DNA of 64,000 nt. Source: Spirochaetota bacterium. Its GTDB lineage: Bacteria > Spirochaetota > UBA4802 > JAFGDQ01. A program made the position numbers and the translations under genes. The notes under the pieces were generated by a model that was not told the DNA's origin, did not search any database, and saw only the letters and a list, made by a program, of their open reading frames with translations. Each line of letters opens with the position of its first letter. Position 1 is the first letter of the stretch. Shown here one piece after another: positions 4,221-41,489 of the stretch. The DNA is taken from NCBI GenBank assembly GCA_034190085.1, contig JAXHTS010000012.1, forward strand, positions 1 through 64,000, read 5' to 3'.

Positions 4221-4296
4221 TGTAAACGACATTTGCCGTAGTGAAACGGAGGCAAATGTGCCGAAGGCCAAGGAGCGAAGCGACGCAGCGTTTACA
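4221..4296. repeat. 76-bp foldable dispersed repeat, copy 1
   Basis: The ends TGTAAACG and CGTTTACA are perfect inverted repeats. Inside, ACATTTGCC and GGCAAATGT form a second perfect 9-bp stem around a 13-base loop, followed by a GC-rich segment that includes GGAGCGAAGCGACG. A diverged copy with the same order of blocks lies at 30911-30989. The element sits within an IS630-like transposase relic. It resembles REP- or MITE-type non-autonomous repeats; no coding content is likely. Confidence 0.65.
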
Positions 4297-4403
4297 TCAT
4301 ATTGGATTTGCCGAAAAACTCACTACCAATTTAGACCAGCTTCGTCAGCATTATCCTGAAGCCGAATATATCGTTTTGATACAAGATAATCTGAATACCC
4401 ATA
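4297..4403 (+). mobile_element. IS630-family transposase fragment
   Basis: About 35 codons match the end of the DDE domain of IS630-type transposases: a phenylalanine-alanine-rich helix, HYPEAEYIVLI, then the hallmark QDNLNTH containing the second catalytic aspartate. Nothing upstream or downstream continues the protein. On its left it abuts the foldable repeat, and on its right it joins the broken RND gene read from the other strand, so it marks the insertion that destroyed that gene. Confidence 0.6.
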
Positions 4404-7484: not shown

Positions 7485-7906
7485 TTATTCAATATTATCT
7501 AAAAATATGGCCTATTATTCAAGGCGTATTATAAGTAATAATAGATTTGCTGTCTATCTATTTTTCACTAATTCAGTACTACTGACAATATAATGAATAG
7601 ATACTCGAAATCCTTGATTTGCCAGAAGGAGAGAAGGTTACTCTACTCATATTTACCAGCACATCTATTAATATTTTTCCCCTTATTGCCCAAAGAGATA
7701 ATAAATATCCTTCACATAAAATTCTGATCAATCCTAACTTTTTTGCATTTTTTTATTAACCTGTCATACTTTTTTTTATTTTCCCCTAAAATCGATTAGG
7801 AATCGATTAGAAATCGATTGGTGATTTGTATATTATCAATATTGAAATGCTTTTCATAAATTTGGGAATTGATCCCAGCGAGAATAAAAGAGGAGGTTTG
7901 TTAATT
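7485..7906. other. Intergenic region before the DUF6125/RND genes
   Basis: About 420 AT-rich bases without a convincing gene. The right part carries the three phased AATCGATT sites described separately. A coding frame can be drawn from 7826, but it lacks a ribosome site and the strong site lies just before 7907. Confidence 0.5.
7790..7819. promoter_or_regulatory. Three phased AATCGATT palindromes (candidate operator)
   Basis: AATCGATT, itself an 8-base perfect palindrome, occurs at 7790-7797, 7801-7808 and 7812-7819, with an exact 11-base period that puts all three on the same face of the DNA helix. They lie about 90 bases before the ATG of the DUF6125-like gene. Such an iterated array is typical of a cooperative repressor or activator site; the regulator is unknown. 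Confidence 0.55.
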
Positions 7907-8410
7907 ATGTGCACAAAACAAGTAAGCCTTACAACTGAACAGAGAGAAAAAATTCTTAAGAACTTGTTGGTACTATTGGATGGGAGATGGTTTCTAAAAT
8001 CTATGGTCGAATATGATTTTAACGGTGCCACAAAAGTAAATCTGGCAGTAGCCAAATCCATTGGGAAAACAGAAATGAAGCTATTGAAGGAGGAGACTGG
8101 ATGTGGAGAAATCAAGAATATTGAGGATTTTAAAGCAATTATGGACCTTCTATTCGATATCACTGTACCTGATATGCAGAAGTATGAGTTTGAAATCGTC
8201 GATCAAAATACTTTCAGATCCTACTTCTATGAATGTCATGTTCATAAAATGACGAGTGAAGCAGGAACTAAGGACATTCATCAATGTGCGGGTAAAATAA
8301 AAGCTCAGGGATGGCTTGAAGGCCTGGGTATTGATGGAGAAGTGATAGCGGAGAAGAATACGAACAACTGCAATGGATCTTGTGAAACCTTTGTGAAATT
8401 TAAATGGTGA
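7907..8410 (+). CDS. DUF6125-like protein
   Basis: 167 residues when read from ATG 7907, which is chosen because AGAGGAGG stands 10 bases upstream. The sequence has the DGRWFL block near residue 24 and a C-terminal cysteine-rich half (ECHVHK, HQCAGKIKAQGW, NNCNGSC) typical of a family of small uncharacterised cytosolic proteins (DUF6125). Several spaced cysteines and histidines could bind a metal. It is followed by an RND exporter after 80 bases. A 23-codon relic of a second copy stands after the exporter (10907-10975). Biochemical role unknown. Confidence 0.6.
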   Translation: MCTKQVSLTTEQREKILKNLLVLLDGRWFLKSMVEYDFNGATKVNLAVAKSIGKTEMKLLKEETGCGEIKNIEDFKAIMDLLFDITVPDMQKYEFEIVDQNTFRSYFYECHVHKMTSEAGTKDIHQCAGKIKAQGWLEGLGIDGEVIAEKNTNNCNGSCETFVKFKW

Positions 8411-36890: not shown

Positions 36891-36962
36891 CCAAAACGTT
36901 CAAGCTCACCAGTGATTAGGAAGTACTACAAAATCAGTGTCCGGTGCAGCGCCCTGTTCGGC
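36891..36962 (-). repeat. attC-like recombination site after the acyltransferase gene
   Basis: On the minus strand: GCCGAACAGGGCGCTGCACC, then CACTGATT, a 14-base loop, AATCACTGGTGAGCTTGAAC and GTTTTGG. The motifs GCGCTGCACCGGAC and GGTGAGCTTGAACGTT are hallmark left and right arms of 60-80 bp attC sites, and CTGCACC against GGTGAG shows the expected extra-helical base. The site lies 25 bases past the stop of the gene at 36987. The R' core (GTTTTGG rather than GTTRRRY) is diverged. Confidence 0.6.
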
Positions 36963-36986
36963 AAGGTCTATCTTCCCATATCCGGC

Positions 36987-38231
36987 TTAAATAACCTTCG
37001 CTACTACTGATATGCGTCGAATAGCGGCAACCGACCCCCAACTGAGAATCAATGTGCCTATGAACACCATCATTCCCTTAATGCTGGGAGCAAGGGCGCT
37101 TCGCAACAACAAGTACTGAAGCCAGGTTACAAAAACGTAGTGAACAACATAGATTCCGTATGAGTTTTCGCTCAAGCTGTCCAAAACACCCACTCGCTGT
37201 TTTACAAACCGAAGAAAGAGTCCAATCATCCCGAATACAGTGGTCCCGCAGCAGACTACGAAAGCAATCTCACTGAAAATGGTTCGCTCTATATCAGATA
37301 CAACTACGAGCATGATGATAAACACAATGAAAGAGATCAGGCCCATAGTTAACCACACCCACCAACGCTTGGCGAGCACGCCATCAGATCTGAACGCGCT
37401 GCGGTCAAATCCGCATGCCCCAACCGTGGTGCCCGCAAGGAAGTACACAAGATAGAGCAATATTCGGCTAGCCTGTGCATTAAAGGGCCCGATTCCAATC
37501 CACTCCAACGGTCCGTAAATGATTGCAATAGGCAGATACGCGGCTATTGAGATTCCAAACAATGCACCAAAAAACGCTAAGGGGTGATCAAGGATGATAG
37601 TCAATCGCCCTCTGATGAGACCTCCTGGGTAAGGAGCAACTCGGTACATAAGGGTAGCCAGGCAGTTGAAAGCCAGCAGCAGCCATAAAAACCAAAGGGG
37701 ACCAGCGGTCCTGAAGCCGGATCGGACCATTCCGAACCAGAATGCGCTATAGCTGAGGTCTGCTCCGGTAATCAGTCCTATTTGAAGCTGCGCCGGGTAG
37801 TAGGCCAGGGGAATCAGGAACAAAACACCGATGACAAAGGGAAGACCGAGCCCTGTCAGGCGATCTCTAAGGAATTTCCGGGCGCCCTTTCTCGCTAAAC
37901 TCTGCCAGACAAACATGCCGGAGATCAAGAACAGCAACGGCATGAAGAACGTTTCGTTAAACGCCACAATCAAATCAAATCCGATCCACCGCTGCTCGTT
38001 TACAACCGGATTGGAATTCGCGATCGGGTTCTCAAAATTGATGAAAGCGTATTTGGTGTAGGCGAGAATCGCGTGCTGGAACAGCACAAGAGTAACTACA
38101 AACGCGCGTAGATAGTCGAACTCGACCTTCCGCCCAGATACTTCTGTCAAATCGAATGTTGCGCTTGCTTCATCCTGCTTGTACTCAACCGCACGAATCA
38201 TCATAACAGTAGACCTTCCAACCGAGTCCAT
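36987..38231 (-). CDS. Membrane acyltransferase (acyltransferase_3 family), higher GC
   Basis: 414 residues with about ten membrane helices. The first helix after EFDYLRAFVVTLVLFQHAIL carries the catalytic-type histidine of the acyltransferase_3 / OpgC group, and PLLFLISGMFVWQSLARKG with a final SENSYGIYVVHYVF are typical blocks. Such proteins O-acylate sugars or glucans. Base composition is near 50 percent GC, clearly above its surroundings, and codons rich in G/C third positions support recent transfer. It is followed by an attC-like site, so it may be an integron cassette. Confidence 0.8.
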   Translation of the reverse strand: MDSVGRSTVMMIRAVEYKQDEASATFDLTEVSGRKVEFDYLRAFVVTLVLFQHAILAYTKYAFINFENPIANSNPVVNEQRWIGFDLIVAFNETFFMPLLFLISGMFVWQSLARKGARKFLRDRLTGLGLPFVIGVLFLIPLAYYPAQLQIGLITGADLSYSAFWFGMVRSGFRTAGPLWFLWLLLAFNCLATLMYRVAPYPGGLIRGRLTIILDHPLAFFGALFGISIAAYLPIAIIYGPLEWIGIGPFNAQASRILLYLVYFLAGTTVGACGFDRSAFRSDGVLAKRWWVWLTMGLISFIVFIIMLVVVSDIERTIFSEIAFVVCCGTTVFGMIGLFLRFVKQRVGVLDSLSENSYGIYVVHYVFVTWLQYLLLRSALAPSIKGMMVFIGTLILSWGSVAAIRRISVVAKVI

Positions 38232-38511
38232 ATATTTACGCTTTAAAGCGAATTACCCGATGGTGCACGACCTAATTTTGCCAAATAAGTTAGTATATTA
38301 TTTTCTGTGTAACTAAAGATTTATATAATTATTAGCGTAGATTTTTCTAAATATTCACATGTATGTCAACTAATTTTATCTGCATAACACGCTGCAGATT
38401 ACAATCCGCAGTGCGATGGCACAGTGCGAAACGTCCGTGTCATCACAATAATAACAATCTATAGGAATAATCCTTTGTATCGGTAAAGATATAATTTTTT
38501 TATTATTAGCT

Positions 38512-41269: not shown

Positions 41270-41275
41270 TCATGG

Positions 41276-41459
41276 TTTACCTGCGTTGCGCGTGATAGGT
41301 ATAAAATATTTTTGAGTCAACACCATCACAAATGGGATCTCAAATCTGAGAGTGGAAATCATGCTTCCAATGACGAAGAAGATGGAAGCCTTCATGCGGG
41401 AACCCACGTGTGTTTAAAGTACTTCAAAAATAATTACCTACACGGCAACAGCGGGTAAA
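41276..41459 (+). ncRNA. ssrS: 6S RNA (SsrS-like)
   Basis: About 184 nucleotides, the usual size. The two ends form a long closing helix: TTTACCTGC (41276-41284) with GCGGGTAAA (41451-41459), GTTGC and CGTG (41285-41294) with CACG and GCAAC (41441-41449), and AGGTA (41297-41301) with TACCT (41435-41439). Inside are the GAGTCAACACC segment, an apical stem GCTTCCA/TGGAAGC, and GGAACCCACGTGTGTTTAAAG, all of which resemble 6S RNAs of deltaproteobacteria as I remember them. 6S RNA binds the sigma70 RNA polymerase holoenzyme as a promoter mimic. Identification rests on structure and remembered motifs, not on a covariance search. Confidence 0.65.
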
Positions 41460-41489
41460 ATCTATTTCTAAACCTCGGATCTGGTTATA

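Follow-up and report, generated by a model that had tools for sequence, protein, structure and literature searches.

A single integron gene cassette outside any array in a Spirochaetota genome

In the window (the whole 64,000-nucleotide stretch of Spirochaetota DNA analysed here), a membrane acyltransferase gene and the attC site behind it form one 1,379-bp gene cassette lying outside any array, an element of the known kind called SALIN (single attC lacking integrase). The cassette has a single attC, model searches of the window and of the remainder of its 106-kb contig (C12) found no other, and the integron integrase gene intI of the same draft genome (96% complete, 86 contigs) is on a separate contig (C54), not next to the cassette with an attI as in a complete integron. 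The best reading, to which we give a probability of about 0.8, is that an integron integrase (IntI) inserted a free cassette at a secondary, attG-like chromosomal site. An initial annotation had already taken the region for a mobile gene cassette, a reading that the attC model scores and the presence of intI in the genome support; beyond it, the cassette stands alone at a secondary site, its 5' end can be identified (it extends upstream to 38275), and the genome holds further stray cassettes and an array.

The attC site and the ends of the cassette

The features, all on the minus strand, are the following:
36897..38275, minus: complete gene cassette (1,379 bp) with TTAGGT as its 5' end and the G of the attC cut as its 3' end; basis, attC model, start word and GC
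36987..38231, minus: acyltransferase family 3 gene (Acyl_transf_3), 414 aa, the cassette cargo; Pfam PF01757, E 1.7e-29
36891..36962, minus: attC recombination site, 3' half-box replaced by chromosomal sequence; basis, models R1 and R2
36956..36962, minus: R'' box GCCGAAC, one departure from the consensus RYYYAAC; basis, sequence and model alignment
36942..36950, minus: L'' box GCT(G)CACCG, extrahelical G at 36947; basis, folding and model alignment
36904..36911, minus: L' box TGGTGAGC (contains GGTGAGC); basis, folding and model alignment
36896..36897, minus: downstream junction, G (cassette, 36897) then TTTTGG (chromosome, from 36896); the R' consensus GTTRRRY is interrupted immediately past the G^TT cut
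38270..38275, minus: displaced R' half-box TTAGGT, marking the upstream end of the cassette 44 bp ahead of the ATG; the A at 38276 is chromosome

The identification of the site as an attC is very secure. Past the acyltransferase stop (36987), the minus strand carries GCGCTGCACCGGAC and GGTGAGCTTGAACGTT where the initial annotation had placed them, and the whole site reads GCCGAAC AGGGC GCT(G)CACCG GACACTGATTTTGTAGTACTTCCTAATCAC TGGTGAGC TTGAAC G^TTTTGG. The claimed attC-type arms and extra-helical base are both present: when L'' pairs with L' in DNA folding, one G (36947) is left extrahelical, at the covariance model's bulge column as well, and the inner stem is ACTGATT/AATCACT. The triplets AAC and GTT lie at 36958-36956 and 36897-36895, and the covariance match spans the full model length. 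Hairpin energy was unremarkable against shuffles (z -0.3 to +0.4) and does not by itself set the site apart, so that a sequence-plus-structure model is needed, and it is on such a model that the attC case rests.

Two home-made covariance models with short calibration were used, and the window attC was in the training set of neither: R1, built from 17 attC sites (four of them from class 1 integron plasmids, the other 13 from arrays of cassettes in IMG/VR contigs), in whose training alignment the L-box pairs covary, and R2, a trimmed model of 23 sites that includes the attC sites found on three other contigs of this genome (C83, C19, and C65). Scored in this way, as had been proposed, the site lies far above background. 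R1 gave 32.4 bits (E 1.2e-6 in the window search, 8.2e-5 across the 4.27-Mb genome) against 9.7 bits for the runner-up window site, and R2 gave 34.3 bits (E 3.1e-7 in the window, 2.1e-5 genome-wide). Across the phylum, R2 has matches at E <= 0.01 in 11 of 149 genomes, several of them grouped in arrays; among the R2 matches listed, those in the window's genome fall on four contigs, R2 being partly trained on that genome, and three related genomes (G001-G003) gave zero matches. The exact pattern of the window attC occurs nowhere in the genome collection searched, and BLAST of the site against plasmids gave short chance matches only. Identical or near-identical arms with a proper GTTAGRY-type box occur on L049, L050, and similar contigs.

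The site is not a complete classical attC: arms and stem stood up, but the 3' half-box did not, being GTTTTGG instead of a GTTRRRY that pairs with R''. An interrupted R' box is what insertion outside an array predicts, with the half-box TTAGGT at 38275, since a cassette integrated alone should begin, upstream, with the remaining half of R' (TTRRRY). The chance expectation per 50 bp of this sequence is about 0.012 for TTAGGY and 0.24 for the looser TTRRRY. The start word is not the exact complement of the window R'' (TTCGGC expected), so the 5' end is placed by consensus, the word being typical of cassettes, and by position. The base preceding the upstream cut is A, not G. Taken together, the cassette ends appear consistent with attG insertion.

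The cassette consists of the 414-aa reading frame, a leader of 44 bp, and the attC on the same strand 24 bp past the stop. Acyl_transf_3 proteins generally acylate surface or membrane carbohydrates. As the initial annotation had noted, the GC content of the gene differs from its surroundings: the cassette is at 0.49, compared with 0.36 for the window and 0.40 and 0.29 for the 3-kb flanks. By its GC the acyltransferase appears foreign, and its only close relative found is in a Desulfococcaceae MAG, at 70% protein identity (among 84,980 species genomes, in a scan that reaches close relatives only). At the DNA level the match is 78% and runs on for about 20 nt beyond the stop; no attC was found beside this homologue. 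The window also contains a 6S RNA at 41275-41461 on the plus strand (Rfam RF00013, 77.3 bits), an ordinary housekeeping RNA.

The integrase and other cassettes of the genome

The suggestion that intI might be found elsewhere on the chromosome led to contig C54, where a profile search identifies an IntI at 409.9 bits against a family cut-off of 265. The protein (C54:63773-65409; L009:13774-15410) is 410 aa long with an N-terminal extension, has the IntI patch LPHALERKYPNA..W and the conserved tyrosine-recombinase residues, and is 47% identical to IntI1. IntI-like matches on C22, C23, and C71 were below the family cut-off and were not accepted. The sequence examined next to intI on C54, and likewise in G001, contained no attC. 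A divergent nucleotidyltransferase-like reading frame follows the C54 IntI at the contig end and might be the first cassette past attI (AAG^TTAGCT). In G001, long inverted-repeat elements with ACATGGATGT-like loops adjoin IntI (G001:C20; L044:1784-1965, 4262-4385).

Elsewhere in the genome, R1 matches attC sites on C83, C19, and C65 (two); further half-site pattern matches scored at chance level. Two of these contigs carry lone cassettes. The C83 cassette (C83:62950-63790; L067:4951-5791) holds an Abi_alpha gene (Pfam; PADLOC PDC-S47), a phage-defence candidate, and ends in A^TTATGC and AAGCG^GTATAT. It sits between pyrG and kdsA, and in G003, a genome of the same taxonomic order, the pyrG-kdsA gap is about 20 bp; this adjacency appears from the sequence to be the empty arrangement for the C83 cassette. 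The C19 cassette (C19:129456-132108; L068:4457-7109) holds the gene of an 831-aa Roc-COR GTPase and ends in G^TTATAC and GTCG^TTTTAC. Each of these two cassettes has a start word exactly complementary to its own R'' (TTATGC in C83; TTATAC in C19, with R'' GTATAAC).

C65 (L069:1-3740) carries a short array at the contig end with at least two attC sites and with DUF302, Phd/PIN, and PIN_3/HicB-like genes, including two toxin-antitoxin-like pairs. An extra hairpin at about 1606-1666 (AGATAAC...GTTATGT, z -6.0) looks like a divergent attC missed by the models. C54 in turn ends just past intI, so a single integron may be split between C54 and C65. Repeats containing GAGCTTGAACATT on C10 were considered as an attC array and rejected, since they lack R boxes and are tandem repeats of 69-71 bp lying between giant paralogous genes. 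The two sets (L021:1845-2139, 7642-7917) have units of 69 and 71 bp, each hairpin-capable, and the flanking paralogues are about 1,600 aa.

Probable insertion outside an array and alternative origins

Insertion by IntI would start from a free circular cassette made up of the acyltransferase gene and its attC. The genome's own integrase, or a similar one, would have inserted it in a single event into a non-integron site, with its attC cut (G^TT) joined to a secondary, attG-like site that lies between genes, next to a DUF3795 gene. The products of such a joining would be TTAGGT at the upstream end and G/TTTTGG at the downstream end. Expression of the acyltransferase could then come from its own or a neighbouring promoter. 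With the outer R pairing lost, though AAC and GTT still match, re-excision of this cassette is probably weaker than from an array. In favor of insertion, the cut point is where R' breaks off, the remainder of R' lies upstream of the gene, and the C83 and C19 cassettes have the same layout.

Without the cassette, the flanks would join as GGCAAAA/TTTTGGTGC (in longer form, a predicted empty site of CTTATTTGGCAAAA/TTTTGGTGCTAAAGG); a joined-flank search of 18 relatives found no empty counterpart of the window locus. Centred on the reconstructed junction (38276/36896) is a perfect 10-bp palindrome, CAAAA/TTTTG, of a sort found at 0.14% of window positions, the meaning of which is suggestive only. 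The C83 and C19 junctions are without a palindrome of this type.

The window attC could instead be the last survivor of a local integron array that has decayed (a collapsed CALIN). Treponema phagedenis is an example of how a spirochaete integron can lose intI yet retain attC sites (PMC3607928), and the single departure of the R'' box from consensus would fit such decay. However, the contig has no other attC or intI remnant and the sister loci have clean ends, which makes local decay less likely; also against it are the position of the R' break, which coincides precisely with the cut point and has its matching half-box upstream, and the C83 cassette, which shares this layout and whose site is empty in G003. 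We consider this origin unlikely. It is quite improbable that the acyltransferase arrived, already within its cassette, inside a larger horizontally acquired segment carried by another mobile element: GC is somewhat raised in the flank at 34-37 kb (0.40-0.46, compared with about 0.29 at 38.5-41 kb), but the upstream GC step falls at the cassette end, inverted repeats bounding a bigger unit were not found nearby, and the reading frames around the site include no integrase or transposase. A chance hairpin such as a terminator mimicking attC, which the ordinary folding energy would allow, is very hard to credit given the genome-wide E value from a model (R1) that never saw the site, the lack of matches in G001-G003, and the correct orientation to the gene with a cassette end on its opposite side.

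Single cassettes at separate places in the chromosome account for at least three of the attC loci that can be detected, and one of these has its phage-defence-like gene between pyrG and kdsA. That insertion outside arrays is a main cassette route in this lineage is, in our estimate, an even proposition. If it is, the genome would keep a record of several natural insertions at secondary sites whose targets can still be read.

Comparison with known integron systems

The kind of element described here is already known as a SALIN; what can be read here are the ends of the strays. The ends of three singletons can be read in the one genome, and for one of them a relative has the empty counterpart, so the strays supply natural targets of probable secondary-site insertion. 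They would also be cases in which an integron has passed genes, a defence-like one among them, to places beyond its array. Single attC sites are omitted by default in IntegronFinder 2.0, which requires two and thereby limits false positives (PMC9024848). For elements with attC and no neighbouring intI (PMC9024848; PMC8618304), the closest likeness is C65, which may be one of them or part of a whole integron; the window locus differs in having a single attC where that default asks for two.

Treponema was the only spirochaete clade with reported integrons in 2013 (PMC3607928), and Spirochaetota is now among the listed integron phyla (PMC8618304). The Treponema chromosomal integrons share with the window site an attC with an L box and a protruding base, reported in a spirochaete, but their attC sites are in arrays adjoining intI, whereas here the attC is alone and intI is on another contig (PMC3607928). 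Cassette insertion at attG or secondary sites has been described by Loot et al. (2024, Nat Microbiol, doi 10.1038/s41564-023-01548-y), as cited in PMC12901181 and PMC12444791. As presented there, it resembles the window locus in that the chromosomal site joined to the attC cut point belongs to neither the attI nor the attC class; that work is experimental, whereas the present case rests on the sequence of a single genome, with IntI as the probable enzyme. Closest in form are the 115 orphan cassettes scattered over 41 Shewanella genomes (PMC9229058; the term is also used in PMC12690207), each with one cassette and one attC away from any integron, in genomes that may also carry intI. In contrast to these, the host here is outside the Proteobacteria, the ends of the cassette are delimited, and one sister locus has an empty counterpart.
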